From: Actinoplanes oblitus
GTDB taxonomy: Bacteria; Actinomycetota; Actinomycetes; Mycobacteriales; Micromonosporaceae
Direction of reading: 5' to 3'
DNA: 64,000 bases
NCBI RefSeq assembly: GCF_030252345.1
Contig: NZ_CP126980.1
Span: 8,131,501 to 8,195,500 of the forward strand
Every line of letters begins with the position of its first letter. The first letter of the stretch is position 1. The translations under genes and the position numbers were made by a program. The notes under the pieces were generated by a model that did not search any database, was not told the DNA's origin, and saw only the letters and a list, made by a program, of their open reading frames with translations. Below, in pieces: positions 3,262 to 49,052 of the stretch.

Positions 3262-4050
3262 TCACGCCTTCGGCGCGTCGACCGTCCAGTCGTAGATGTC
3301 CTGGTGGGAAACCCGGTCGCCGGTGGCGCCGGTGAAACCGAGCCAGCCTTCGGAGACGCCGGCCCAGTGCGCGACGTCGACCTTCTCGTCGAGCATCAGC
3401 TGGGACCGCGCCTGCTTGTACAGCCCGCGGACGTACACGCGCAGTCGCTCGTGCCCGGCGTCGTAGCTGATCCGGGCGGCGAACGGCTTGCCGTACAGCG
3501 GGATGGCGGCGTCGGCGGTCTTGTGGTGCCGGTCCGGGTTGCCGCCGAGCACCACGGCCAGGTGGTTGCTGCTCGGATCGGTGGAGTTCTGGAAGGTGTC
3601 GAACTCGACAGCCACGCTCTTACGGATGCCGCGGTACCCCAGGCCACCGCCCCAGCCGCCGAGCGCCCGCGGCCCGTGGCCCTGCGCCAGGAACGCGATG
3701 CCGTCCGCACCGGGCCGGTCGTGGTGCAGGAACGCCGTGAACGAGGTCTCGAACGACCGCTTCAGGTCGACCCGCTCGGTGGACCAGGCGGATCCGATCT
3801 GCTTGTAACCGCCCCTGGTCAGCTGGATGACCCGGGTGCCGGTGCTGGCCCGGGTGAGCATCTCGGCGGTGCCGTTGAGTTCCAGGTGCTTGCCGGAACC
3901 GTCGGTGATCGGGTGACTCTCGTGCATGGCGCGAGGTGCGGCGACCGCCCCCGCGGCGGGCGCGGCGGCGGATATCGACAGCACGGCGGCGGCCAGCAGG
4001 CCACCCCGCGGCAGTCTCGACGAACGGGACAGACGCACGACATGCTCCAT
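3262..4050 (-). CDS. Secreted L-type (legume-like) lectin domain protein
   Basis: The 262-residue product has a Sec signal peptide (positively charged start, hydrophobic stretch, Ala-rich cleavage region around residue 38) followed by a single concanavalin-type beta-sandwich. The diagnostic segment is VAVEFDTFQNS followed by DPSSNHLAVVLGG, which in L-type lectins supplies metal-coordinating Asp and Asn residues. A second recognisable block is RISYDAGHERLRVYV, the strand pair seen near the end of these folds. No catalytic domain or anchor is attached, so the protein is probably released and binds carbohydrate outside the cell. It is transcribed away from the surface protein gene at 4555, sharing a 504-bp intergenic region. 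Confidence 0.85.
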   Translation of the reverse strand: MEHVVRLSRSSRLPRGGLLAAAVLSISAAAPAAGAVAAPRAMHESHPITDGSGKHLELNGTAEMLTRASTGTRVIQLTRGGYKQIGSAWSTERVDLKRSFETSFTAFLHHDRPGADGIAFLAQGHGPRALGGWGGGLGYRGIRKSVAVEFDTFQNSTDPSSNHLAVVLGGNPDRHHKTADAAIPLYGKPFAARISYDAGHERLRVYVRGLYKQARSQLMLDEKVDVAHWAGVSEGWLGFTGATGDRVSHQDIYDWTVDAPKA

Positions 4051-4554
4051 TTCAGTCGATTTGCCCGACTAAGACCTGGCCTAAGGTAGGGCAGACTCCG
4101 GAGCCGCGTGAGCGAGTCGTGGTTATTTACCCAAGACGGTCCCCCCGTCGTGACCACCCCGGCCCGGCGCCACACCTCGGCGAGCCACCCCGGCGGGGCA
4201 CTATTTCGCCATTACGCAAAGACGCCCATCGAATTCCCGGCCAGGTCGAAAAGTGGACCACCACCGATACTCCAGAATCGACCCGATCGCATCACGGTGT
4301 CGCGGGCCGTTTACTCTGCGCTGCGGGTGTGATTGCATTAGAGCAGGTCAGCGAAATCTGGCCGGATCCCGTTGAACCCCGGGCATCATCCGTTCGGAGG
4401 ATGCCCGGGGTTCACGCACCGGACCCTGTTTTTCTTTAAGTTTCGATCGCGGAAACCTTAAATAACGTTCCGGAATTGCTTTCTGTGAGAGCTGCTCCTA
4501 ACGTCTGCTCGTCGGCGCCACAATGGCGAACGCCACATCACCGAAGGGCACGTC
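4051..4554. other. 504-bp divergent intergenic region, lectin / surface protein
   Basis: This stretch is less GC-rich than the genes around it, notably at 4200-4350 and 4430-4490, and should contain the promoters of both divergent genes. It also contains a strong hairpin with a following T-run (4374-4437) that belongs to no obvious upstream gene. An open frame of 74 codons at 4108-4332 on the plus strand ends shortly before the hairpin, but its composition and start give it no independent support. Confidence 0.5.
4374..4437 (+). terminator. Orphan Rho-independent-type hairpin with T-run
   Basis: A perfect 14-bp stem pairs GAACCCCGGGCATC (4374-4387) with GATGCCCGGGGTTC (4400-4413), and T-rich sequence (tgtttttcttt) follows about 10 bp later. 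By form this is an intrinsic terminator for plus-strand RNA, yet the only plus-strand gene nearby starts after it. It may end a short RNA or small ORF, or act as a leader attenuator of the gene at 4555. Confidence 0.6.
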
Positions 4555-6036
4555 ATGGGAAGCACGGGTCACCGCCGTTCCGGTCTCGCGGCCGCGGGGT
4601 CGAGCCGCACCCGGCTGCTGGCCATCGGAGCCGCGGTCGTCGCCGTGGGTGGCGCGATCGGGTTCACCCAGCTGTCGCGGGCCGACGAGGCCCCGTCGAC
4701 GAAGGCCGCCGGCGAGAGCGGGGCCGGCAAGATCGTCAACGGGCAGAAGATCCTCACCGACACCTGCGTCGACAGCAAGCTGACCGCGCACGACGGCTTC
4801 CAGAAGGGCGACCGGTGCGTCTCCACCGAGTTCGGTGAGGTGGCCTCGGCCGCCAACGACGCGGCACTGCTGATCACCGAGTCGCCGCGAGAGGTCGCGC
4901 CGAACACCCCGTTCACCCTCAAGGTGAGCACCCGCAACCTGATCCGCGACCGGTTCCTGGCGGCCGGCAAGGGCGGGTACTACGTGGAGTCCAGCGTCCT
5001 GCAGAACGGCCTGGTCCGCGGCCACTTCCACACCGCGTGCCGGATGCTGGCCAGCACGGACGAGGCGCCGACCCCGGAGGGCGTGCCGGCCTTCTTCGTG
5101 GCCACCGAGGACTCCAAGGGCGGCCGGACGCCGGACACGGTGACCATCCAGGTCCCCGGGATGCCCACCGAGGGCACCGCGCAGTGCGCGTCGTGGGCCG
5201 GTGACGGCTCGCACCGCACGCCGATGATGGAGCGGGCCAACCAGACGCCGGCGATCGACGCCGTGCGAATCACCGTGCGCGCCGGCGGCGGCAACCAGGG
5301 TGGCGGCGGCAACAACGGCGGTGACCAGGGCGGCAACAACGGCGGTGACCAGGGCGGGAACACCGGCGGAAACACCGGTGACAACAACACCGGTGGCGAC
5401 AACAACCAGAACACCGGCGGGAACACCGGTGACAACAACACCGGCGGCAACACCGGTGACAACAACACCGGCGGCGGGCAGGCGACGGCCACCCCGCGGA
5501 TCACCACCAAGACGACGGTCTCGCCGGGCACCACCAGGAACACCGACAGCACCGGTACGGGCGGCGACTCCGACGACGAGACGACCGGCACCACGAAGAG
5601 CACCACCAAGTCGACCCCGGCACCGTCGGCCACCACCAAGGCGCCGACCACCAAGTCGACGAAGTCCACCAGCGGCAACGCCACGACCTCCGGCTCGGAC
5701 TCCGACTCCGGCTCCGCCAGCGATGCGGACACCACCGCCGACGAGCCGGCGGAGACCACCGCGCCGGCCACCAAGAAGCCGAAGCCGCAGGTCACCGAGA
5801 GCGAGGAGGCACCGGCCGCGGACTACGGCGTGGACGGCGGCGCCCCCGACCAGGCGGCACCGGCCAGCACCGCCGACGACGTGCAGCTCGCCGACCCGCC
5901 GGCCGGCACCGGCGCGAAGGGCGGACCGCTCACCCTGCTCAGCGACCACCCGGCGTGGTTCGGTGGCGGCGCGGTGCTGGTGCTGCTCGCGATCATCGGG
6001 TTCGCCTTCACCCGCTCGCGGCCGCGGCGGTACTGA
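4555..6036 (+). CDS. Cell-surface protein with Gly/Asn repeat and Thr/Ser-rich stalk
   Basis: The 493-residue protein starts with a signal peptide or anchor (hydrophobic at about 20-40), then a globular region (about 45-240) with scattered Cys (TDTCVDSK, GDRCVST, HTACRML, TAQCASW) that could form two disulfides. Next comes a low-complexity tract of GGDQGGNN and GGNTGDNNT units (about 243-310), then a Thr/Ser/Lys-rich stalk, and finally a hydrophobic span (about 467-487) with a basic tail, RSRPRRY. No LPxTG-type sortase motif precedes the tail. The architecture is that of an actinobacterial wall- or membrane-anchored surface protein; the globular domain is not one I recognise. A GAAGGG box precedes the ATG, and a strong terminator follows at 6054. 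Confidence 0.8.
   Translation: MGSTGHRRSGLAAAGSSRTRLLAIGAAVVAVGGAIGFTQLSRADEAPSTKAAGESGAGKIVNGQKILTDTCVDSKLTAHDGFQKGDRCVSTEFGEVASAANDAALLITESPREVAPNTPFTLKVSTRNLIRDRFLAAGKGGYYVESSVLQNGLVRGHFHTACRMLASTDEAPTPEGVPAFFVATEDSKGGRTPDTVTIQVPGMPTEGTAQCASWAGDGSHRTPMMERANQTPAIDAVRITVRAGGGNQGGGGNNGGDQGGNNGGDQGGNTGGNTGDNNTGGDNNQNTGGNTGDNNTGGNTGDNNTGGGQATATPRITTKTTVSPGTTRNTDSTGTGGDSDDETTGTTKSTTKSTPAPSATTKAPTTKSTKSTSGNATTSGSDSDSGSASDADTTADEPAETTAPATKKPKPQVTESEEAPAADYGVDGGAPDQAAPASTADDVQLADPPAGTGAKGGPLTLLSDHPAWFGGGAVLVLLAIIGFAFTRSRPRRY
5283..5482 (+). repeat. In-frame Gly/Asn-coding tandem repeats
   Basis: Short in-frame units built on ggcaacaccggtgacaacaa and ggcggtgaccagggcggc encode the GGNTGDNN and NGGDQGG blocks of the surface protein. 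Such tracts can change length by slippage and usually form flexible extracellular linkers. Confidence 0.8.
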
Positions 6037-6053
6037 GCTTTCCCCACTCTCCA

Positions 6054-6106
6054 GTGATGTCCCGGGCAGGCGCGACTTCTTCCGCGCCGCCCGGGACATC
6101 ACTTTT
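6054..6106 (+). terminator. Intrinsic terminator after the surface protein gene
   Basis: GTGATGTCCCGGGC (6054-6067) pairs perfectly with GCCCGGGACATCAC (6089-6102). A second stem, GGCGCG with CGCGCC, lies inside the loop, and TTTT follows directly. It lies 18 bp after the stop codon at 6036. The sequence continues into the recurring TTTCCGGTACGCC motif. Confidence 0.9.
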
Positions 6107-6316
6107 CCGGTACGCCGGCAGCCGCGTTCACGGCGCTGGTCCCGGTGCGCGTGCTCGGGGCGTACGGAAAGCGGGTGATCCGGACGGGGAGCGGACCGTG
6201 ACGTGCCCGCCGTGTCTGCCGATGGCGCGATTTTCCGGTCGCGCGGCCGGGCGGTATCGGGCATTGCGTGTCGCGCAGGTGAGGGATGCGCACACCGGTC
6301 GGTTGGACGGCCGAAA

Positions 6317-6335
6317 TTAAGGGTAGCCTTACTTG
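6317..6335 (+). promoter_or_regulatory. Iron box (DtxR/IdeR/DmdR-type operator)
   Basis: TTAAGGGTAGCCTTACTTG matches the actinobacterial iron-box pattern (TTAGGTTAGSCTAACCTAA) at the key symmetrical AGG/CCT positions. It lies 34 bp before the ATG of the siderophore-interacting protein, whose function fits iron repression. Established knowledge: DtxR-family repressors with Fe(II) bind such sites. Confidence 0.75.
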
Positions 6336-6369
6336 CCGGAGATCCGTCCACCGGCAGTGAGGTGCGAAC

Positions 6370-7212
6370 ATGTCGAACAGACCGGCGCGGCCCGCGCACG
6401 AAGGCGTGGTCACGCGGGTGGAGCAGCTCACCCCGCACATGGTGCGGGTGGTGGTCGGTGGCGAGGCGATCGCCCGGATCGACGCGAGCCGCTGCACCGA
6501 CCATTACATCAAGGTGCTCTTCCCGCAGTCCGGCGTCGACTATCCGGAGCCCTTCGACATGGGCGTGATCCGGGAGACCCTGCCGCGGGAGAGCTGGCCG
6601 CTGGTCCGGACCTACACGGTGCGCAGGTGGCTGCCCGAGGCCGCCGAGATGTGGGTGGACTTCGTGGTGCACGGCGACGCCGGCATCGCCGGGCCGTGGG
6701 CGGCGCGGGCCCGGGTCGGCGAGCCGTTCCGGTTCATGGGCCCCGGCGGTGGCTACACGCCGGACGCCGGCGCCGACTGGCACCTGCTGGCCGGCGACGA
6801 GAGCGCGCTGCCGGCGATCGCCGCCTCGCTGGCCGGCATGCCGGAGGGCGCGATGGTGCGGGCGTTCATCGAGGTGGCGGGGCCGGACGAGGAGCAGAAG
6901 CTGGAGACCCCCGCGGACGCCGAGATCGTCTGGCTGCACCGCGGCGACCGGCCGGTGGGCACCGCGCTGGTCGAGGCCGTGCGGGGGCTGGAGTTCCCGG
7001 CCGGGCGGGTGCAGGTGTTCGTCCACGGTGAGGCCGGGTTCGTCAAGGACCTGCGCGGGCACCTGCGGCTGGACCGCGGGCTGAGCATGGACCAGCTGTC
7101 CATCTCCGGATATTGGCGGTCCGGGCTGAACGAGGACGGCTGGCAGTCCAGCAAGCGGGAGTGGAACGCCAAGGTCGAGCAGGAGCAGGAGCAGCCGGCC
7201 GTTTCCCGGTAA
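6370..7212 (+). CDS. Siderophore-interacting protein (FAD-dependent ferric reductase, SIP/ViuB family)
   Basis: The 280-residue protein has the full SIP layout. The FAD-binding beta-barrel carries RTYTVR (around residue 80) and DFVVHGDAGIAGPWA, where the isoalloxazine ring sits. The NAD(P)H-binding half carries LLAGDESALPAIA, and the C-terminal ISGYWRSGLNEDGW is a family signature. The enzyme reduces Fe(III) in imported ferric siderophores in the cytoplasm, which frees Fe(II). An iron box just upstream (6317) supports expression under iron limitation. No siderophore transporter or synthase lies next to it in this window, so it stands alone. The last residues (Glu/Gln-rich tail) are not conserved in the family as far as I can tell. 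Confidence 0.93.
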   Translation: MSNRPARPAHEGVVTRVEQLTPHMVRVVVGGEAIARIDASRCTDHYIKVLFPQSGVDYPEPFDMGVIRETLPRESWPLVRTYTVRRWLPEAAEMWVDFVVHGDAGIAGPWAARARVGEPFRFMGPGGGYTPDAGADWHLLAGDESALPAIAASLAGMPEGAMVRAFIEVAGPDEEQKLETPADAEIVWLHRGDRPVGTALVEAVRGLEFPAGRVQVFVHGEAGFVKDLRGHLRLDRGLSMDQLSISGYWRSGLNEDGWQSSKREWNAKVEQEQEQPAVSR

Positions 7213-7227
7213 GGACCGACCCGCCGG

Positions 7228-8484
7228 GTGAGGCCTTCGTCTCATCCGGCGTCTCCGCAGCTCTCCGGTCCACCACCGCCGGACGATGATGGTGCCGTGG
7301 CAGTGCTGGAAGAACAACCGACCCGGTCGCGTCGCGGGCGCGCCTTCACCCTCGTGGCCCTCGTGCTGGCCGCGGTGAACCTGCGGCTCGCGGTGACCAG
7401 CGTGGGCCCGGTGCTCACCGAGATCCGCGACGGGCTCGGGATGAGTTCGACAGTGGCCGGGCTGCTGACCTCCGTGCCGGTCGTCTGTTTCGCCACCGTC
7501 GGACTGCTCGCGCCGCGCCTGGCTCGGCGGGTGGGCGCCGCTCCGGTGATCGCCGGCGGCCTGGTGCTGCTCGCCGCGGGGCTCACGGCCCGGCCGTTCG
7601 CTGGCGGCCCGGCGCTCTTCCTGCTGCTCAGCGCCGTCTCACTGGCCGGCATCGCGCTGGTCAACGTGCTGCTGCCGTCGATCGTCAAGGACCACTTCCC
7701 GACCCAGGTGGGCACCGTCACCGGGCTCTACTCGGTGGCGCTGAACCTGGGCGCGACAGCGGCCGCCGCCACCACCGTGCCGCTGACCGACGGCTTCGGG
7801 GACTGGCGGCTCGGGCTGGGCTGCTGGGCGCTGGCCGCGCTCGTCGCGCTGCCGCCGTGGCTGCTGCTGGCCCGGCAGCGCACCGCCACCCGGACGGCGG
7901 CGGCCAGCACGCCGCCGGTGCGGGTGAGCCGGCAGCCGATCGCCTGGGCGCTGGCCGTGTACTTCGGGATGCAGTCCACCTCGGCGTACGTGATCATCGG
8001 CTGGCTGCCGCAGATCTACCGGGACGCCGGGCTCTCCGCGGAACTGGCCGGGGTGCTCTTCGCGACCACCTCGCTGCTCGGCGTGCCATTGGGGATGCTG
8101 CTCTCCGCGGTGGCCGGCAAGCTGCGGTCACAGAGCGGCATTGCCGTCACTTTGGGGCTTTTCGGTATTGCCGGTTATTCCGGTCTGTGGGCTGATCCGG
8201 CTGCGGCGCCGTGGCTGTGGGCCGTCCTGCTGGGCATCGTGAACACAGCGTTCCCGCTGGTCCTGACGATGATCGCGCTGCGCGGCAGCAACCCGGCAAC
8301 GGTGGTGCGGCTGTCCGCGTTCGCCCAGGGTGTCGGCTACCTGATCGCCATTCCGGGCCCGATCCTGATCGGCGCGCTGCACGACGCGACGGGCGGCTGG
8401 CGGGCCCCCTTGGCGGTCATGGTGGTCCTGATGGTGCCGCAGATCACTGCGGGCTATTTCGCCGGCCGTAATCGCCAGATTTAG
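7228..8484 (+). CDS. MFS transporter, CynX/NimT-like
   Basis: The 418-residue protein has about 12 hydrophobic spans in two halves, with an MFS-type loop around RLARRVGAAPVIAGG after span 2. The opening NLRLAVTSVGPVLTEI after the first span, and the QSTSAYVIIGWLPQIYRDAG segment in the second half, are typical of CynX/YeaN-type transporters (cyanate, nitroimidazole or similar small solutes). The start is uncertain: the GTG at 7228 has an AAGGA box 12 bp upstream, while the GTG at 7297 would remove a 23-residue Pro/Ser-rich tail that looks unnecessary. It begins only 15 bp after the SIP gene and may be cotranscribed. The substrate cannot be read from sequence. Confidence 0.85.
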   Translation: MRPSSHPASPQLSGPPPPDDDGAVAVLEEQPTRSRRGRAFTLVALVLAAVNLRLAVTSVGPVLTEIRDGLGMSSTVAGLLTSVPVVCFATVGLLAPRLARRVGAAPVIAGGLVLLAAGLTARPFAGGPALFLLLSAVSLAGIALVNVLLPSIVKDHFPTQVGTVTGLYSVALNLGATAAAATTVPLTDGFGDWRLGLGCWALAALVALPPWLLLARQRTATRTAAASTPPVRVSRQPIAWALAVYFGMQSTSAYVIIGWLPQIYRDAGLSAELAGVLFATTSLLGVPLGMLLSAVAGKLRSQSGIAVTLGLFGIAGYSGLWADPAAAPWLWAVLLGIVNTAFPLVLTMIALRGSNPATVVRLSAFAQGVGYLIAIPGPILIGALHDATGGWRAPLAVMVVLMVPQITAGYFAGRNRQI

Positions 8485-8677
8485 GTCTTGGCTCAGGGTC
8501 CGCGAAACCGGAATCCGGAGACCTCAACGGCGTTCCTGACTGGCCGATAGTGACCTCAGGCTATCCACAGCCGATCTCCAGGTCGACAACCCGATCTTTA
8601 AAAGGTGGATCAGGTTCACTATCCTTCCGGCGGCGGGCCGCACCCACGCCCAGCCGTTTCAGTCAAGGAGTCAGCGC

Positions 8678-9865
8678 ATGCCAGCGGCAACCGACCGGAC
8701 CGACGGCCGTCAGCTTCTGGCAGACGGGACACCGGGCAAGAAGAAGAAAAAGGCGAAGGGCCCGAGGGCCCCGCTCTGGACCAAGCTGCTCACCGCTTTC
8801 GGCGCGGTGCTGCTGGTGATCAGCGGGGGCACCGGCATCACCGCCAACTACCTGCTCAGTCAGGTCACCGACAACGTGCAGACCACCACCTCGGCGCTCA
8901 GCCAGGACGGCGGGGTCGGCGCGGTGCAGACCAACGGCAAGCTGCCCGAGGGCGCGATCAACCTGCTGATGCTCGGCCTGGACACCCGGACCGGCTGGGA
9001 GAAGAGCGGTGAGGGCTCCCGGTCGGACACGATCATCGTGCTGCACATCCCGGCCAGCCGCGACAAGGCCCAGATGATCTCGATCCCCCGGGACACCAAC
9101 GCGGAGATCCCGGCCGACGAGAAACTCGGCTTCGGCGGCAGCACCGAGAAGATCAACGGCGCGTTCTACTACGGCTCCCGGGGCAAGGGCGGCATCGCGG
9201 GCGGCATGAAACTCGCCGCCAAGGCCGTGCACAACCTGACCGGGATCAGCTTCAACGGCGTCGTCGTGATCAACTTCAACGGCTTCAAGGACATCCTGGA
9301 GGCCCTCGGCGGCGTCTACATGTGCGTCGACCAGGACTCCTGGTCCAGCCACTACGTGGTGAACAACGGCAAGGTGGAGTACGCGAAGGGCGCCGACCCG
9401 CTGTCCCCGCCGAGCAACGCCCTGTGGTTCAGGAAGGGCTGCCGCAACATGAAGGCCTGGGAGGCCCTGGAGTTCTCCCGGATCCGGCACTCCGCCCACG
9501 GCGACTACGACCGGCAGCGGCACCAGCAGCAGCTGCTGCGCGCGATGGCGAAGAAGGCCACCAGCAGCGGCGTGCTGACCGACCTCTCGAAGGTGTCGAA
9601 GCTGCTCTCGGCGGCCGGCTCGTCGCTGACGCTGGACACCAACAACGTCCCGGTCTCCGACTTCTTCTTCGGGCTCAAGGGGCTGGCCAACGCCGAGCTG
9701 CTGCCCATCCGCAGCAACAGCGGCAGCTTCTACAGCACGTCGGACGGCAGGAAGGAACTGATCAACGACGTGACCAAGCAGCTGTTCGCGGCCGCGGCCA
9801 AGGACAAGCTGGACCCGTTCCTGCTCGCGCACCCGGAACTGGTGATCAACAGCTCGGGGAACTAG
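8678..9865 (+). CDS. LytR-CpsA-Psr (LCP) family cell-wall glycopolymer ligase
   Basis: The 395-residue protein has a Lys-rich cytoplasmic tail (KKKKKAKG), one membrane span (about 34-58) and an extracellular LCP domain. Family landmarks are LLMLGLDTRTG, the SRSDTIIVLHI segment with R115/D117, and SIPRDT with R138/D139, residues that bind the polyprenyl pyrophosphate head group and magnesium. FSRIRHSAHGDYDRQRHQQQLL is the conserved C-terminal helix (quoted in part: RIRHSAHGDYDRQRHQQ). LCP enzymes transfer glycopolymers from the lipid carrier to peptidoglycan, or arabinogalactan in mycolata. An AAGGAG box precedes the ATG. It is a single-gene unit that converges with the luciferase-like gene, with a hairpin between them. 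Confidence 0.93.
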   Translation: MPAATDRTDGRQLLADGTPGKKKKKAKGPRAPLWTKLLTAFGAVLLVISGGTGITANYLLSQVTDNVQTTTSALSQDGGVGAVQTNGKLPEGAINLLMLGLDTRTGWEKSGEGSRSDTIIVLHIPASRDKAQMISIPRDTNAEIPADEKLGFGGSTEKINGAFYYGSRGKGGIAGGMKLAAKAVHNLTGISFNGVVVINFNGFKDILEALGGVYMCVDQDSWSSHYVVNNGKVEYAKGADPLSPPSNALWFRKGCRNMKAWEALEFSRIRHSAHGDYDRQRHQQQLLRAMAKKATSSGVLTDLSKVSKLLSAAGSSLTLDTNNVPVSDFFFGLKGLANAELLPIRSNSGSFYSTSDGRKELINDVTKQLFAAAAKDKLDPFLLAHPELVINSSGN

Positions 9866-42793: not shown

Positions 42794-43963
42794 ATGACCC
42801 TCACCGACCCCCTCGAGCTGCTCGACATCGCCGGTCTGCTGAGCGACGAGGAGCGGCAGATCCAGCAGACGGTGGGCCGGTTCGTCGCCGACCGGATCCG
42901 GCCACACGTCGCCGAGTGGTTCGAGGCCGGCACCTTCCCTACCCGCGAGCTCGCCCCGGAGCTGGGCAAACTCGGCGTGCTCGGGATGCACCTGGACGGT
43001 TACGGGTGCGCCGGGACGAGCGCTGTGGCGTACGGTCTGGCCTGTCTGGAATTGGAGGCCGGCGACTCGGGCCTGCGCAGTTTCGTCTCGGTGCAGGGCT
43101 CGCTGGCGATGTTCTCCATCTGGAGGTACGGCTCCGAGGAGCAGAAGCAGGAGTGGCTGCCGCGGATGGCGGCGGGCGAGGCGATCGGCTGTTTCGGCCT
43201 GACCGAGCCGGACTTCGGCAGCGACCCGGCCAACATGCGCACCCGCGCGGTCCGCGACGGCGACGACTGGGTGCTCACCGGCACCAAGATGTGGATCACC
43301 AACGGCAGCATCGCCGACATCGCGACGGTGTGGGCGCAGACCGAGGACGGCATCCGCGGCTTCCTGGTGCCGAAAGGGACGCCGGGGTTCACCACGCGCA
43401 CCATCAAGCAGAAGCTGTCGCTGCGGGCGTCGATCACCGGCGAGCTGATCCTGGACGAGGTGCGGCTGCCCGACTCGGCCCGGCTGCCCGGCGCGCGCAG
43501 CCTGGGCGCACCGCTGAGCTGTCTGAACGAGGCCCGCTTCGGGATCATCTTCGGCGCGGCCGGCGCCGCCCGGGACTGCCTGCGGACCACGATCGAGTAC
43601 GCGAACACCCGGGTGCAGTTCGACCGGCCGATCGCGGCGTTCCAGCTCACCCAGGAGAAACTGGCGAACATGGCGGTGGACCTGAACACGTCCGCGCTGC
43701 TGGCCCTGCACCTGGGCCGGCTCAAGGACGCCGGGTCGATCAAGCCGCACCAGGTCAGCGTCGGCAAGCTGAACAACGTGCGGAAAGCGCTGGGGATCGC
43801 CCGCGAGTGCCGGACCATCCTCGGCGGCAGCGGCATCACCCTGGAGTACTCGCCGCTGCGGCACGCCAACAACCTGGAGTCGGTGCTCACCTACGAGGGC
43901 ACGTCGGAGATCCACACACTGGTCATCGGGCAGGCGCTGACCGGCCACGCCGCGTATCGCTGA
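42794..43963 (+). CDS. Acyl-CoA dehydrogenase, glutaryl-CoA dehydrogenase-like
   Basis: The 389-residue flavoprotein shows GCFGLTEPDFGSDPANM (FAD and substrate binding), WITNGSIADIATVWA, TRVQFDRPIAAFQLTQEKLA and TYEGTSEIHTLVIGQALTG. E368 in YEGT is the catalytic base position of the glutaryl-CoA dehydrogenase group. The enzyme would oxidise, and perhaps decarboxylate, glutaryl-CoA in lysine or tryptophan breakdown. It may be monocistronic. Its 3' end overlaps the convergent sigma-factor fusion gene by 41 bp, which is also where that gene's recombinase domain is cut short. Confidence 0.92.
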   Translation: MTLTDPLELLDIAGLLSDEERQIQQTVGRFVADRIRPHVAEWFEAGTFPTRELAPELGKLGVLGMHLDGYGCAGTSAVAYGLACLELEAGDSGLRSFVSVQGSLAMFSIWRYGSEEQKQEWLPRMAAGEAIGCFGLTEPDFGSDPANMRTRAVRDGDDWVLTGTKMWITNGSIADIATVWAQTEDGIRGFLVPKGTPGFTTRTIKQKLSLRASITGELILDEVRLPDSARLPGARSLGAPLSCLNEARFGIIFGAAGAARDCLRTTIEYANTRVQFDRPIAAFQLTQEKLANMAVDLNTSALLALHLGRLKDAGSIKPHQVSVGKLNNVRKALGIARECRTILGGSGITLEYSPLRHANNLESVLTYEGTSEIHTLVIGQALTGHAAYR

Positions 43964-45839
43964 GGGTTCGCAGGGTCCGCCCGGTCGCCTGTTTGAAGAG
44001 GTGGGCGGCGCGTTCGTAGGACAACCGCCGCCGGCCGGTCTCCGGGCAGAGATCGGCCGGTTGCGGACGGCGGGCCGGGGCGGGCCGCCGGTCCGACAGG
44101 AAGAGCGGTCCTCGGGTCCGGCTCCCGATCAGCTCGGGCAGCAGGGCCGCGGTCCGCTCGCCCCAGGTCACTCCGGGTCCGCGGCGGCCGGCCAGATCCA
44201 GAGCGTCGACGTCGAGCGCGAGCACGGCGCCGATCGGGGCCGCCGACTCCCGCACCATCGCCCACAGCACGCGCTCCCGCACCGGGACGCCGGCCAGGTC
44301 GGGCAGTCCGCCCGGCACGATGCCGGCGCTGTCCGGCACGGCCCGATTTCGCAGCCCGGCCGCCAGGTCGGGGAATCCGGCCCACGCACTGAACGACCGG
44401 ACCGCGGCGAGGTGCCGGTTCCAGCTGCGAGGCGCGGCGTCCGGCCAGATCGCGGCCACGGCCGCGGCCACCCCGGCGGCGTCGAGGGCGGCCAAGGGAG
44501 TCCGTTCCCCCAAGATCCGCCGCAGCCGGCCAAGCGATTTCCGGTACGCGTGAGCCGTCGCCCCGCCCAGCCCCGCCACGAACTCGTCGACCGCCGCCCC
44601 GAGCATCGGCCCCGCGCCGGCGCGGCCCGCACCGCCCTCCGCCCGCGCTCGCAGGAAGTCCCGCTCCGCCGCGTTCCGGGTCAGCGACGCGGCCCGCTCC
44701 AACTCCAGCCGCGCCTCCGCCACCCGCCCGACCCGCAGCAGCAGATCCCCGCGAACCCCCGGCAGCAGGTGGTAGTCCCGCAGCACCGGATCCGCCCGCA
44801 GCGCGTCCACCAGCGCCAGCCCCGCCTCCGGCCCGGCCGCGAAGCCCACCGCGACGGCCCGGTTCAGCCGTACCACCGGCGTCGGCAGCAGCCGCTCCAA
44901 CGCCCCGTAGAGGGTCGCGATCCGCCCCCAGTCGGTCTCCTCAGCCGTCCGGGCCTGGGCGTGACAGACCGCGATGGCGGCCTGCAACACGTACGGCCCC
45001 GGCGCCCTCCCGGCACCGGCCGCCCGGGCTCGCAGCATCGCCGCGAACCCGCGGTTGATCAGCAGACGGTCCCATCGCCCGCGGTTCTGTTCGTGCAGCT
45101 GGACCGGCTCGCCCCGGGGACCGGTGCGGGCCGCCGACCGGGACTGCTGGATCTCCATGAGCGCGACCAGGCCGTGCACCTCGGGTTCGTCAGGCGCCAG
45201 CTCGGCGAGCAACCGGCCGAGCCGCAGCGCCTCCAGGCACAGGCCGGGGCGCATCAGGTCGTCGCCGGAGGTCGCCGCGTAGCCCTCGTTGAAGACCAGG
45301 TAGACGACCTCCAGCACGGAGGCCAGCCGGCCGCTCGACTCGGCGCCGGACGGCAGTCCGTAGGCGACACCGGACTCGGCCAGGGTGCGTTTCGCCGCGG
45401 CGATCCGCTGGGCGACGACCGGTTCGCCGACCAGGAACGCACGGGCGATCTCGGCGGGGCTGAGGCCGGCGACGACCCGCAGCGTCAGGGCCACCCGCGC
45501 GTCCCGGTCCAGCACCGGATGGCACGAGATGAACATCAGCCGCAGTACGTCGTCACCTGACGACTCCTCGGCGGTGGCCCGGGGCTCGATGTCCGTACCG
45601 TCGAATCTCTGTGCTCTCCGCAAGTGATCGACGGCCTTGCGGCGGGCGATGGTGGTCAGCCAGGCACCCGGATTGTCCGGGACGCCGTCGACCGGCCACT
45701 GCTCCATGGCCGCGACCAGCGCGTCCTGCGCGAGTTCCTCGGCCAGGCCGACGTCGTGGACCATCCGCAGGAGCGTCGCGATGATCCGCGCGGACTCCTG
45801 CTTCCAGACGACGCCGACCCGGGCGCGGACCTCGATCAT
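43923..45839 (-). CDS. ECF42 sigma factor fused to a degenerate tyrosine-recombinase domain
   Basis: The 638-residue protein is far longer than the usual ECF42 factors (about 400; the one at 47832 has 406). Residues 1-165 hold sigma regions 2 and 4 (LAEELAQDALVAAMEQWP, LSPAEIARAFLVGEPVVAQR), and residues 166-400 the DUF6596/TPR-like extension (VVYLVFNEGYAATSGDD, VVRLNRAVAV, RNAAERDFLRARA). Residues 415-490 then look like a recombinase core-binding domain (DEFVAGLGGATAHAYRKSL, RSWNRHLAAVRSF) and 518-625 like part of the catalytic domain (RERVLWAMVRES, LALDVDALDLAGRR, LFLSDRRP, RLSYERAAHLFKQATG). The expected first Arg is replaced (AAPIG), the HxxR box is replaced by LRTLSDTR, and the Tyr segment is absent. 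It lies 19 bp after its DGPF partner. Confidence 0.85.
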   Translation of the reverse strand: MIEVRARVGVVWKQESARIIATLLRMVHDVGLAEELAQDALVAAMEQWPVDGVPDNPGAWLTTIARRKAVDHLRRAQRFDGTDIEPRATAEESSGDDVLRLMFISCHPVLDRDARVALTLRVVAGLSPAEIARAFLVGEPVVAQRIAAAKRTLAESGVAYGLPSGAESSGRLASVLEVVYLVFNEGYAATSGDDLMRPGLCLEALRLGRLLAELAPDEPEVHGLVALMEIQQSRSAARTGPRGEPVQLHEQNRGRWDRLLINRGFAAMLRARAAGAGRAPGPYVLQAAIAVCHAQARTAEETDWGRIATLYGALERLLPTPVVRLNRAVAVGFAAGPEAGLALVDALRADPVLRDYHLLPGVRGDLLLRVGRVAEARLELERAASLTRNAAERDFLRARAEGGAGRAGAGPMLGAAVDEFVAGLGGATAHAYRKSLGRLRRILGERTPLAALDAAGVAAAVAAIWPDAAPRSWNRHLAAVRSFSAWAGFPDLAAGLRNRAVPDSAGIVPGGLPDLAGVPVRERVLWAMVRESAAPIGAVLALDVDALDLAGRRGPGVTWGERTAALLPELIGSRTRGPLFLSDRRPAPARRPQPADLCPETGRRRLSYERAAHLFKQATGRTLRTLSDTRRGRSAPAR

Positions 45840-45858: not shown

Positions 45859-46179
45859 TCAGGCGAAGACCTGGTGGATCATGCTCTCGCCGTCCCCGAC
45901 GATCTTGCGGAACCGCCGCCCGAGCTCGACCGCCTCCTCCCGCGACCGCACCTCGACCAGCGCGAACCCGCCGATCGCCTCCTTCGCCTCGGTGAACGGC
46001 CCGTCGGTCACCGTCACGTCGTCCCCCTGCGAGGCGATCTTGAACCCGGCCGGGTCCAGGCCGCCGGTCGCCAGCAGCACGCCGGACGCGGTCATCTCCT
46101 CGATGAACGCCGCCATCTCGGCGAACAGCTTCTCGTCCGGCTGGGTGTCCTGCATCTTCGACAGCATCAGGTAGCGCAT
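45859..46179 (-). CDS. YCII/DGPF-domain protein, partner of ECF42 sigma factor
   Basis: The 106-residue protein contains VTDGPFTEAKEAIGGFALVEV, the DGPF motif that gives the family its name, in a small ferredoxin-like fold (YCII superfamily). DGPF proteins are regularly encoded next to ECF42 sigma factors and can be their main targets. The gene precedes the ECF42 fusion gene by 19 bp on the same strand, so both are probably read from the promoter at 46219-46247. Its role is unknown; a small-molecule or stress sensor has been suggested for the group. Confidence 0.92.
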   Translation of the reverse strand: MRYLMLSKMQDTQPDEKLFAEMAAFIEEMTASGVLLATGGLDPAGFKIASQGDDVTVTDGPFTEAKEAIGGFALVEVRSREEAVELGRRFRKIVGDGESMIHQVFA

Positions 46180-46218: not shown

Positions 46219-46247
46219 CGTCGTCCGGGTCCATGTGACAGGTAATC
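46219..46247 (-). promoter_or_regulatory. ECF-like promoter for the DGPF/ECF42 operon
   Basis: Read on the minus strand: GATTACCTGTCACAT (46247-46233), nine bases, then CGACG (46223-46219), 40 bp before the ATG. The same bases at the same spacing occur on the plus strand for the divergent gene. TGTC- and CGA-type elements match what has been reported for ECF42 promoters. Assignment to this sigma factor is inference. Confidence 0.6.
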
Positions 46248-46276: not shown

Positions 46277-46305
46277 GATTACCTGTCACATCCGCTGAGG
46301 CGACG
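46277..46305 (+). promoter_or_regulatory. ECF-like promoter for the DUF998-like gene
   Basis: GATTACCTGTCACAT (46277-46291), nine bases, then CGACG (46301-46305), 37 bp before the ATG at 46342. It is the mirror image of the promoter at 46219-46247, so the two 15-bp elements also form a perfect inverted repeat separated by 29 bp. Confidence 0.6.
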
Positions 46306-46341: not shown

Positions 46342-47025
46342 ATGACCACCACCCGCCACCCGGCCGCCTCCGTCACCTCCCACCCGGCCGCCTCCGTCGC
46401 CTCATACCCGGCCGATCGCGTCGGCGGCACCCGGGCGATGCTCGGCGCGCTCGCGGTCGCCGGACCGCTGTGGGCCGCCGTGTCGTTGACCCAGGCCGCC
46501 ACCCGGGACGGCTTCGACCTGACCCGGCACCCGCTGAGCCTGCTCAGCACCGGCGCGCTCGGCTGGCTGCAGATCACCAACTTCGTCCTGGCCGGAATCC
46601 TCCTGCTGATCGGCGCCACCGGCCTGCGCCGCACGATCACCAGCCGCTGGGCACCGCGGCTGGTCCGGATCAGCGGGGCGGGCATGCTCGCTGCGGGCGT
46701 CCTGGTGATGGATCCGGCCGACGGCTACCCGATCGGCACCCCGGCCGGGATGCCGGCCACCATGAGCTGGCACAGCATCGGCCACATGGCCGCCGGTTCG
46801 GTCACCTTCATCGCCCTGATCGCCGCTTGCTACGTCCTGGCCCGGCACTTCAGGGCAGCCGGCGCGGGCGGCACGGCCGTCGCCGGAGCCATCGCCGGAA
46901 CCGCCCTCCTGGCCGGCGACACCTGGGCCATGACCGGCAGCCCGGCCGGCTCCGCGACCCTGGCCGTCGGCGCCATCACCGCGATGTGCTTCCTCACCGC
47001 CGCCGCCCTGCACACCCGCCGCTGA
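46342..47025 (+). CDS. DUF998-like integral membrane protein
   Basis: The 227-residue protein has about six membrane spans after a 30-residue hydrophilic tail that contains a short repeat (HPAASVTS, HPAASVAS, YPADRVGG). DLTRHPLSLLSTGALGWLQ and MDPADGYPIGTPAG are conserved blocks of this membrane protein family. AAGGAG precedes the ATG. It is divergent from the DGPF/ECF42 operon and shares a symmetrical promoter pair with it, which suggests that the ECF42 factor also drives this gene. The biochemical role is unknown. Confidence 0.85.
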   Translation: MTTTRHPAASVTSHPAASVASYPADRVGGTRAMLGALAVAGPLWAAVSLTQAATRDGFDLTRHPLSLLSTGALGWLQITNFVLAGILLLIGATGLRRTITSRWAPRLVRISGAGMLAAGVLVMDPADGYPIGTPAGMPATMSWHSIGHMAAGSVTFIALIAACYVLARHFRAAGAGGTAVAGAIAGTALLAGDTWAMTGSPAGSATLAVGAITAMCFLTAAALHTRR

Positions 47026-47502
47026 CCACCCTCCCCCAGCTGGTCATGGTGGTGGCCTCCCAACCCACGACACCACCGCCAGCACCAGCCACCAGCTCCC
47101 GGCTGGTCATGGCGGTGGCATCCGGACCGCCGACACCACCGTCAGCACCAGCCACCAGACCCCGGCTGGTCATGGCGGTGGTATCCGGAACCACGAGACC
47201 ACCGTCAGCACCAGCCGGCAGATCACGGCTGGTCAGGGGGGTGGTATCCGGACCCACGAGAGCACCGTGAGCACCAGCTGGCAGATCACGGCTGGTTGTG
47301 GTGGGGGTGTGTGGGGAGCTGACCGCCGCCGGCTCACGGTCCGTCCCGGGTCCGGATCGCCGATTTCCGGTACGGGACTCGCCGGCGTACCGGAAGAGAT
47401 CCTCGAAAATCCTCGGCGGAACGTGTCGGATGGCGGTGCCGGCGTTCGTAGCGGGATTGTGGAGCGGTCGGAGTGACCGCCGGGCGACAGGAGATGATCT
47501 CG
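47026..47502. repeat. 63-bp tandem repeats and second DGPF promoter region
   Basis: Four full copies and part of a fifth of a 63-bp unit start at 47040, 47103, 47166, 47229 and 47292 (ctggtcatggcggtggtatc in the best-kept copies). The period equals 21 codons and leaves open frames on both strands, such as TAMTSRGLVAGADGG on the minus strand, but no start signal. Beyond 47310 two inverted copies of the TTCCGGTACG motif (47367-47394) form a possible hairpin, and the promoter of the DGPF gene at 47503 should follow; TGTCGG at 47425 with CGTTC at 47444 is a weak ECF-like candidate. Confidence 0.8.
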
Positions 47503-47835
47503 ATGGCGCAGTACCTGATCTCGGTGCTTCACGACGCGGCGGAGCTCGCCACCGACGCGGAGATGGCGGCGATCGACGTCTTCAACGAGGGACTGCGGGC
47601 GGACGGGCACTGGGTCTTCGCGGGCGGGCTGGCGTCGCCCGACTCGGCCACCGTCGTCGACGCGCGGGCCGGCGGGCCGATCTACACCGACGGGCCCTAC
47701 CTGGAGTCCAAGGAGTTCGTCATCGGCTTCTGGATCGTCGAGGCACCGCACCTGGACGTGGCGCTGCGGCTCGCCGGGAACGGGTCGAGGGCCTGTAACC
47801 GGCGGGTCGAACTGCGGCCGTTCCTGGACGCGTGA
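47503..47835 (+). CDS. YCII/DGPF-domain protein, partner of second ECF42 sigma factor
   Basis: The 110-residue protein starts MAQYLISVLHDAAEL and carries IYTDGPYLESKEFVIGFWIVE, where DGPY replaces DGPF. The ATG at 47503 lies 9 bp after AGGAG; the ATG at 47494 directly touches that box and is less likely. Its TGA overlaps the GTG of the ECF42 gene, so both proteins are produced together. It is a second, complete DGPF/ECF42 pair less than 2 kb from the first. Confidence 0.9.
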   Translation: MAQYLISVLHDAAELATDAEMAAIDVFNEGLRADGHWVFAGGLASPDSATVVDARAGGPIYTDGPYLESKEFVIGFWIVEAPHLDVALRLAGNGSRACNRRVELRPFLDA

Positions 47836-49052
47836 CCGGCGTCCAGGAGGCGCTCACCCGGGTTCACCGCGAGGAGTGGGCCCGGGTGGTCGCGACGCTG
47901 GCCAGGCGTTACGGCGACCTCGACCTGGCCGAGGAGATGGCCGCCGAGGCGTTCGCGGCAGCCGTCGAGCGCTGGCCCGCCGACGGTGTCCCGCCCGCTC
48001 CGGGCGCCTGGCTGACCACCACCGCCCACCGCAAGGCCATCGACCGGCTCCGGCGCGAGGCCCGGCGCGACGAGAAACACCGGGAGGCGCTGATGCTGTC
48101 CGGCACCCCGGAGCCGCTCGGCGTGATCGACGACGACCGGCTCCGCCTGGTCTTCACCTGCTGCCACCCGGCGCTCGCCATGGAAGCCCGGGTGGGGTTG
48201 ACCCTGCGGATGGTCGGCGGCCTGACCGTGTCCGAGATCGCCCACGCGTTCCTGGTCCAGGAGACCGCCATGGGCCAGCGCATCACCCGCGCCAAGGCGA
48301 AGATCAAGGCAGCCCGGATCCCGTACGGGGTGCCGCTGCGTGACGATCTCCCGGCCCGGGTGACCGGGGTGCTCGCCGTGCTCTACCTGATCTTCAACGA
48401 GGGCTATCTGGCGTCCGGCCCGGGCGCCGGGGCGGTCCGCGCCGACCTGACCGCCGAGGCGATCCGGCTGACCCGGCTGGTGCACGCCCTGCTGCCGGCC
48501 GACGGCGAGGCCACCGGGCTGCTGGCGCTGATGCTGCTGACCGAGGCCCGCCGGCCCGCCCGGGTGTCGGCGAGCGGTGAGCTGGTCACGCTCGCCGAGC
48601 AGGACCGTGGCGCCTGGGACCGGGCGCTGATCGCCGAGGGGCACGCCCTGGTCCGGGCCCGGCTCGCCGCCGGGGAGGCACCGGGTCGCTACCAGATCCT
48701 GGCCGCGATCAACGCGGTGCACACCGACGCCCGGGATGTCCGGGACACCGACTGGTCACAGATCCTCGCCCTGTACGACCAGCTGGTCCGCGTCGATCCG
48801 TCGCCGATCGTGCGGCTCAACCGGGCCATCGCGGTCGCCGAGCTGGACGGGCCGGAGGTCGCGCTGGCGGAGATCGCCGGGCTGCCGCTGGCGGAGTATC
48901 ACGCCTACCACGCGGTCCGCGCCGACCTGCTGCGCCGCACCGGCCGCAGCACGGAGTCGCGGGAGGCGTACGACCGGGCCATCGCGTTGAGCGGCAACAC
49001 GGCCGAGACGGCACACCTCATCCGCCGGCGGGACCAGCTGGGCGCCCCGTGA
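47832..49052 (+). CDS. ECF42-group RNA polymerase sigma factor
   Basis: The 406-residue protein has sigma region 2 (LAEEMAAEAFAAAVERWP, PGAWLTTTAHRKAIDRL), region 4 (LTVSEIAHAFLVQETAMGQR) and the long C-terminal extension of ECF42 factors (LYLIFNEGYLASGPG, GLLALMLLTEARRPAR, VVRLNR-like IVRLNRAIAVAEL, ending SGNTAETAHLIRRRDQL). The extension is needed for activity in characterised members. Start is GTG 47832, overlapping the DGPF stop (GTGA). This is the normal family length and serves as the comparison for the 638-residue fusion protein at 43923. Confidence 0.93.
   Translation: MTGVQEALTRVHREEWARVVATLARRYGDLDLAEEMAAEAFAAAVERWPADGVPPAPGAWLTTTAHRKAIDRLRREARRDEKHREALMLSGTPEPLGVIDDDRLRLVFTCCHPALAMEARVGLTLRMVGGLTVSEIAHAFLVQETAMGQRITRAKAKIKAARIPYGVPLRDDLPARVTGVLAVLYLIFNEGYLASGPGAGAVRADLTAEAIRLTRLVHALLPADGEATGLLALMLLTEARRPARVSASGELVTLAEQDRGAWDRALIAEGHALVRARLAAGEAPGRYQILAAINAVHTDARDVRDTDWSQILALYDQLVRVDPSPIVRLNRAIAVAELDGPEVALAEIAGLPLAEYHAYHAVRADLLRRTGRSTESREAYDRAIALSGNTAETAHLIRRRDQLGAP

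Follow-up and report, generated by a model that had tools for sequence, protein, structure and literature searches.

Why should a sigma factor carry at its C-terminus a tyrosine recombinase that has lost its catalytic residues? The question is raised by a gene at 43923..45839 (minus strand) of the 64,000-nucleotide stretch of the Actinoplanes oblitus genome analysed here (RefSeq assembly GCF_030252345.1, contig NZ_CP126980.1, positions 8,131,501 to 8,195,500), which we call the window. Sigma factors are thought to find promoters via regions 2 and 4. We consider it probable, on the basis of sequence comparisons, that this gene encodes an ECF42 factor with a domesticated, dead recombinase domain that binds a recombinase-type half-site and carries the sigma factor to the adjacent -10 element. 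The old enzyme probably serves as an extra hand for promoter finding, since the domain has been kept across many soil bacteria and the promoters of the fusion genes share a 13-bp word with intact relatives of the recombinase. These half-sites, which went unnoticed in an earlier note made from the letters of the window, suggest what the domain is for. The parts of the fusion gene are:

43923..45839, minus strand: ECF42 sigma factor with a catalytically dead tyrosine-recombinase domain (638-amino-acid (aa) open reading frame (ORF), Pfam, hhalign, AF2)
45606..45794, minus strand: sigma-70 region 2 (Sigma70_r2), residues 16-78 (Pfam, E-value 3.3e-13)
45381..45536, minus strand: sigma-70 region 4 (Sigma70_r4_2), residues 102-153 (Pfam, E-value 3.1e-6)
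45027..45329, minus strand: DUF6596, residues 171-271 (Pfam, E-value 5.1e-36)
44355..44603, minus strand: tyrosine-recombinase core-binding (SAM-like) domain, residues 413-495
43956..44288, minus strand: dead, truncated catalytic domain, residues 518-628 (sequence comparison, hhalign and fold)

In the ORF list the frame starts with ATG and runs uninterrupted by a stop codon for 638 aa, and ORF, Pfam and hhalign agree with the earlier note that a complete ECF42 factor is joined in it to a core-binding and a partial catalytic domain. The protein has the traits of an ECF42 factor, namely, sigma-70 regions 2 and 4, a DUF6596/TPR-like extension and an adjoining YCII gene; TPR fold matches place TPR-like helices from DUF6596 to about residue 405, and the recognition helix of its sigma region 4 differs from that of unfused ECF42 factors. 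The Pfam profiles proposed in the earlier note as a check bore out its reading in part: DUF6596 matched strongly and Phage_int_SAM_1 was borderline at residues 427-487 (22.1 bits in the whole protein against a cut-off of 22.3; 23.7 bits, E-value 5.9e-5, when the C-terminal piece was searched alone), while the 638-aa protein had no match to Phage_integrase. Pfam, NCBIfam and PHROGs together gave only marginal integrase evidence for the domain, and a profile search of PDB sequences gave nothing. However, hhalign matched the domain to catalytically intact relatives with a probability of 100 and an E-value of 1.5e-49 over 232 columns at 37% identity, the alignment stopping at the HxxR box, and this profile-profile match settles its identity as a recombinase despite the marginal Pfam scores. 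AF2 modelling, a structure prediction having also been suggested beforehand, gave a pLDDT of 91.8 and a pTM of 0.82. As TPR proteins filled the list in a fold search with the whole protein, we folded the recombinase domain on its own, and in the model it folds like a recombinase, with a core-binding fold and a catalytic fold, the latter truncated.

Judging from its residues, the fused domain has lost catalysis. Using the established names and roles of tyrosine-recombinase catalytic residues, we found that the window's protein has Pro in place of the first Arg (ESAAPIG) and RTLS in place of HxxR, and that its Lys hairpin is deleted and the second His and the Tyr are absent; the losses at the first Arg, HxxR and Tyr segment had been named correctly before. 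Since the catalytic Arg/Lys/HxxR/His-Trp/Tyr set is lacking, we do not file the protein as a tyrosine recombinase. Among 120 listed homologues (of 165 fusion-type matches; DUF6596 is present in 115 of the 120 and missing from five in the precomputed list), four retain the first Arg, one the Lys and seven the HxxR His, and none has the second His or the Tyr, as against a full catalytic set in 30/30 free-standing relatives, sampled as every fourth of 120 listed (3482 matches overall). The fusions also end early, the median C-terminal distance from the start of the LSY motif being 32 residues, versus 77 in 116 free-standing relatives. This end point is common to the 120 listed homologues, except that P0053 and P0073 extend further, likewise without the Tyr, and that P0085 is marked partial. 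Therefore, the overlap with the convergent acyl-CoA dehydrogenase gene, where the earlier note had placed the break, is not the cause of the domain's end. An intermediate form is found in the genus g44, five genomes of which have the sigma factor fused to a full-length recombinase that keeps HxxR and the second His, with the first Arg changed to Pro, the Lys to Arg, and the Tyr to Phe (four of the five) or Leu (one); PF00589 matches one of these full-length fusions (E-value 2.3e-8). As a separate observation, P0053, P0073 and P0111 (885, 870 and 667 aa) are shown in the precomputed list with a further region-4 domain of sigma factors (PF04545).

Sequence conservation indicates that the fusion is an old, conserved architecture and not decay local to this genome. 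Homologues are listed from Actinoplanes, Herbidospora, Nonomuraea, Streptosporangium, Streptomyces, Kitasatospora, Amycolatopsis, Saccharopolyspora, Nocardiopsis and other genera. Among 60 relatives, 14 genomes (a number that includes the window's own) have a single open frame of 629-848 aa, and the fusion is interrupted in two further ones (G020, and G032, by a run of N), so that the same fusion does recur in related genomes. From the 245 loci of a genome scan we examined 80, in 73 of which the FNEGY motif of DUF6596 lies in the same open frame. We therefore rejected local decay, as well as a frameshift or assembly error, which the earlier note had given as grounds for refutation. Across 11 chosen pairs among 12 genes, the ratio of nonsynonymous to synonymous substitution rates (dN/dS) was 0.13-0.25 for the catalytic remnant, 0.15-0.50 for the core-binding domain and 0.20-0.40 for sigma regions 2-4, values that place the recombinase domain under purifying selection. 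In a tree of the domain (29 of the 120 fused homologues, 5 full-length fusions and 21 free-standing rows), every fusion falls on one side of a branch with a support of 99. The notion of an integrase relic joined to a sigma gene is thus right about the joining and the lost catalysis and wrong about a relic decaying here, and the further suggestion that a DNA-binding remnant is kept as an additional domain of the sigma factor agrees with the purifying selection and the conservation. Analysis A1 covered 90 of the 120 listed homologues, and A4 covered the window and 65 of the 80 loci.

What the domain may bind is indicated by the promoters. Upstream of the YCII gene, whose start was parsed upstream of the fusion in 74 of 81 loci, the fusion promoters carry the 13-bp word TTMCCTGTCACAT. 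Its 9-bp core occurs in 76 of 80 fused loci (about 10.7 kb each), nearly only at the promoter position, and in 0 of 28 unfused ECF42 loci (about 3.3 kb each); two further loci in this comparison set of 30 proved to be fusions, and both carry the core. A right arm matching at least 10 of 13 positions is present in 76 of the 81 loci, L059 and L087 among them looking like chance, and an inverted left arm is also present in 59, with a spacer between the arms of 8 bp in 47, 9 in 8, 10 in 2, 12 in 1 and 33 in the window. The right arm is followed after 8 or 9 bp by CGACG, the two occurring together in 72 of the 81 loci, so spaced that the first base of the word lies 21-22 bp before CGACG in the main group of fusions; a mirror CGTCG stands outside the left arm in 54 of 59 loci. 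Loci with the inverted pair tend to have a divergent DUF998 gene as well (both in 46 loci, the pair alone in 12, DUF998 alone in 3, neither in 14; Fisher p 6e-6). Because of this association and the spacing of CGACG and its mirror, we read the palindrome as two back-to-back promoters, each combining a half-site with a -10-like CGACG. Although 33 bp separate the arms in the window, the distance from each to its CGACG remains 9 bp:

46233..46245, minus strand: recombinase-type half-site TTACCTGTCACAT upstream of the YCII gene
46219..46242, minus strand: promoter-like unit CCTGTCACAT-N9-CGACG facing the YCII and sigma genes (CGACG at 46219-46223; G000:C1:8177719-8177742)
46279..46291, plus strand: second half-site TTACCTGTCACAT, in inverted orientation and separated from the first by 33 bp
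46282..46305, plus strand: promoter-like unit CCTGTCACAT-N9-CGACG facing the divergent DUF998 gene (G000:C1:8177782-8177805)

On the genome scale too, the exact patterns are specific to the fusion loci among the 60 relatives. The strict palindrome was found in 10 of the 60 relatives, at one copy per genome and always beside the fusion gene, and CCTGTCACAT-N7-10-CGACG gave 17 matches in 11 of the 60, every one at a fusion locus. One or the other exact pattern is present in 14 of the 16 fusion-bearing relatives versus 0 of the 44 others, and the remaining two (G004, locus L155, and G014, presumably locus L022) carry variants. In the window's own 9.8-Mb genome the word, at no more than one mismatch, occurs three times, two of them at this locus. 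Allowing a gap of 0-10 bp between the half-site core and CGACG was too loose and was abandoned, as 31 of the 60 genomes matched, nearly all away from fusions. A class sample of 394 genomes contains 16 with a fused frame of more than 600 aa and a strong match. Nine of these, beyond the window's genome and those with the strict palindrome, have a half-site at 12 or more of 13 positions, some as direct repeats: the word is single or directly repeated in the five g44 genomes and matches at 12-13 of 13 positions in G237, G128, G379 and G325.

Sequence comparison shows homology between the domain and a family of catalytic actinomycete recombinases, some of which have the same word nearby. The strict palindrome occurs seven times in the class sample, five times at fusions and twice elsewhere (L178 and L179). 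At L178 the palindrome, whose arms (ATGTGACAGGGAA-N7-TTCCCTGTCACAT) are identical to those of fusion promoters, is followed 0.9 kb downstream by a free-standing recombinase that has the full catalytic set and contains the fusion-type stretch DLCPHTGRSRLSYERAEYLFKQ. At L179 an ECF42 gene appears to be split by an insertion; the palindrome lies at the end of this insertion, which also contains a recombinase gene start about 170 bp downstream of a half-site. Six free-standing recombinases (L178 and a clade of L116, L118, L120, L123 and L181) all have the full catalytic set, and the loose word GACAGnnAA is present in five, about 100-160 bp upstream of the homologous stretch in four, farther off in L178, and missing in L116. 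In 99 kb of control loci the loose word occurs three times, and these are all the sites belonging to the two fusion loci that the set includes. Different inverted repeats adjoin the genes of several other free-standing relatives, but such repeats are not rare. Counting any 13-N7-13 palindrome near free-standing recombinases was unconvincing by itself and was dropped. A scan of viral contigs with the L178 recombinase found no relative.

Some observations at these loci stand apart. Between palindrome and recombinase at L178 (11156-12030) are a small ORF without a Pfam match and what appear by eye to be pieces of a ParA-type gene, suggesting a plasmid or an integrated element. The insertion at L179 (G371:C50:15000-28000, 3329-9720), in an apparently split ECF42 gene, is about 5 kb long, with the palindrome at one end and the recombinase start near the other. 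L120 (2308 and 2385), a free-standing recombinase, has a near-identical palindrome, GTGTGACAGAGAA-N7-TTCTCTGTCACAC, and a third half-site 77 bp off. Two distant free-standing relatives, L017 and L222, have nearly the same other inverted repeat upstream (ccgcagtaaa-N7-tttactgcgg), perhaps their own core sites.

How could a recombinase half-site come to stand at a sigma-factor promoter? The commonest hexamer upstream of unfused ECF42 loci is TGTCGA (13 of 24 stretches from 30 loci, two of the 24 being fusions and some misplaced since the YCII start was parsed by motif), which we take to be the ECF42 -35 word. It is found in 0 of 72 main-group promoters, the window included, in the stretch between 60 bp upstream and 20 bp downstream of CGACG. 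In the recognition helix of sigma region 4, an Arg is present in 16/16 unfused but 5/70 fused proteins, and a Thr in 15/16 versus 12/70; among 63 loci with the half-site at -35, the Arg is kept in 1 (L029) and a Lys stands in 2. The five full-length dead fusions, however, keep the Arg. An ordinary ECF42 promoter lies downstream of their half-sites, which are directly repeated with an 18-bp period in four of the five: its TGTCGA and the CGACG after it are exact in L211 and L212, one base of TGTCGA is changed in L213 and L215, and in L214 it is the CGACG part that can be assigned. L046 and L098 are truncated fusions that combine directly repeated half-sites with both TGTCGA and the Arg. The half-sites stand about 28-41 bp upstream of TGTCGA in L046, L098 and L211. 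When a tree of 28 of the 80 fused loci, 5 full-length fusions and 6 free-standing rows is rooted on the last, the full-length fusions and L046/L098 branch first and a mixed clade of L032, L057, L059 and L072 next, the relevant forks having a support of 82-100 in two measures, although the bootstrap values are rough.

The contrast between the early and main-group patterns would fit a scenario in which recognition of the -35 passed step by step from sigma region 4 to the recombinase domain. We lean, somewhat cautiously, towards the following history: the domain and its half-site would have been acquired together, and catalysis lost while the recombinase was still full-length; the half-sites at first lay upstream, with the domain acting as an upstream helper at an ordinary ECF42 promoter; then the half-site moved to -35, where the domain took over from sigma region 4, TGTCGA disappeared and the sigma-4 reading residue was lost; finally, back-to-back promoters arose. 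The recombinase domain would thus bind its old half-site and bring the sigma factor to the neighbouring -10, and the outcome may be a switch, nearly self-contained, that controls the sigma factor's own YCII operon together with the divergent DUF998 gene, with a signal perhaps entering via the TPR part and YCII.

Two other explanations deserve discussion. According to one, the main-group word is simply a new -35 read by sigma region 4, and the recombinase domain serves for dimerisation, partner binding or autoinhibition. The word does stand at the -35 position, one copy suffices per promoter, and the sigma-4 helix has changed. However, position 11 of that helix has turned variable and not newly fixed, the word stands beside five of six free-standing catalytic recombinases that have no sigma part, and in early fusions it sits upstream of an intact TGTCGA promoter; moreover, 13 conserved bp is long for a sigma-4 site. 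We regard this explanation as improbable, and assign a similarly low likelihood to an autorepressor, in which the domain sits over the promoter and shuts off the operon and DUF998, while the sigma part acts elsewhere or on release. The main-group half-site overlaps the -35 region as a repressor site might, yet CGACG follows at a constant 8-9 bp and is mirrored outside the left arm in 54 of 59 loci, the main-group promoters have no separate TGTCGA, and the early half-sites of L046, L098 and L211 lie upstream of TGTCGA, a placement more usual for an activator. A precedent for such a repressor is MrpR (PMC10516654).

It is very unlikely that the palindrome is a working recombination site of another resident recombinase, with the fusion as a mere passenger. 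The inverted 13-8-13 geometry is that of loxP, and 13-7-13 sites do adjoin free-standing recombinases. On the other hand, the ten relatives with a strict site have a single one per genome, the arms in the window have moved apart while the spacing of half-site and CGACG was kept, early fusions have direct repeats, and the inverted pair goes with divergent DUF998. Finally, a functionless relic fused by neutral read-through would explain the lost catalytic residues but is already contradicted by the purifying selection, the occurrence across many genera and the co-occurrence of domain and site, and is scarcely credible.

Several observations weigh against a recombinase domain that reads the -35 half-site. 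An altered sigma region 4 could read part of the word at that position, and the overlap of half-site and -35 is equally expected for an autorepressor. The catalytic domain beyond HxxR is part of the DNA clamp in recombinases, and this part is missing in most members. The loss of the Arg correlates imperfectly with a half-site at -35, because L029 keeps it and the clade of L032, L057, L059 and L072 is mixed, and the correlation is carried by few independent lineages. In the ECF tree, built from 37 of the 73 fused rows and from 23 unfused ones, the split between fused and unfused proteins has a support of 39, and the sister of the fused clade is not established in the unfused set. Half-site and CGACG are not found together in nine of the 81 loci: L046 and L098 have the upstream arrangement instead, L032, L059, L074 and L072 have a single half-site of the left type, L054 and L087 have no half-site that we could find, and L067, a damaged gene, has a pair nearer the gene than the scanned stretch. 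In the class sample the strict palindrome is present in 5 of the 16 fused genomes, one more of the 16 being the window's, and G410 has no half-site in the 2.6 kb fetched. Inverted repeats in general are common, with arms of at least 11/13 in 36 of 77 control windows, and the word is absent beside the other free-standing relatives examined, except for one copy inside the gene L125.

The protein can be compared with several known systems. With ECF42 factors it shares regions 2 and 4, DUF6596, TPR-like helices and a YCII gene directly upstream, and it differs by an extra recombinase domain of 230 residues and, in the main group, by the half-site in place of TGTCGA and the altered sigma-4 recognition helix. 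With tyrosine recombinases (Xer, Cre, lambda Int, and actinomycete integrases such as P0121) it shares the core-binding and catalytic folds, the sequence through HxxR and half-sites, and it differs in lacking the Tyr and a complete catalytic set, in ending at HxxR in most members, and in its attachment to a sigma factor. SnoaL-like domains are not known to act as DNA-binding heads, which sets ECF41 and ECF56 apart from the fusion. In sections of PMC8999054, ECF41 and ECF56 are likewise ECF sigma factors with a C-terminal extension, SnoaL-like in both, and section 3.5.2 describes the TPR extension and YCII neighbour of ECF42; neither "integrase" nor "recombinase" occurs in the main text. MrpR (PMC10516654) illustrates how a protein with the recombinase fold can give up catalysis and turn into a regulator of transcription. 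MrpR/YopR of SPbeta and SroF of phi3T, recombinase-fold repressors, have in common with the fusion domain the fold and the lost catalysis, and for the fusion domain promoter binding is predicted from the co-occurrence of domain and word. However, MrpR is a phage repressor that occurs as a separate protein, and SroF is listed as another, whereas the fusion domain is part of a chromosomal sigma factor and would probably help to start transcription. Among the open-access papers listed on ECF42, DUF6596, the reclassification of ECF factors, and ECF or sigma factors with integrases or recombinases, none concerns the fusion by title or abstract, although two central ECF papers may mention it; in the single ECF42 paper listed with integrases, these serve as a tool.

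If our interpretation is true, an imported DNA-binding head together with an imported binding site would be another route to a private promoter. It would also clearly exemplify how a mobile-element recombinase is recruited into the transcription machinery, a process whose stages (catalytic, dead full-length and truncated) can still be observed alongside matching promoter stages. It would further allow a concrete test of the wiring between ECF42 factors and the neighbouring YCII and DUF998 genes, and would provide a ready-made pair of sigma factor and promoter that has few targets.

The genes around the fusion are:

45859..46179, minus strand: YCII gene, directly 5' of the sigma gene (Pfam, E-value 2.4e-13)
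46342..47025, plus strand: divergent DUF998 gene (PF06197, E-value 9.9e-29; start uncertain, 46342 or about 46438)
42794-43963, convergent with the fusion gene: acyl-CoA dehydrogenase gene, overlapping the 3' end of the fusion

Elsewhere, L078, a Rhodococcus rhodnii record, is very like L028 of Kibdelosporangium aridum in YCII, tail and promoter, which may reflect a recent transfer or a mislabelled or contaminated assembly. In the window itself, a second YCII-ECF42 pair, without the recombinase domain, lies at 47473-49052 on the plus strand, about 0.45 kb past the DUF998 gene of the first pair.

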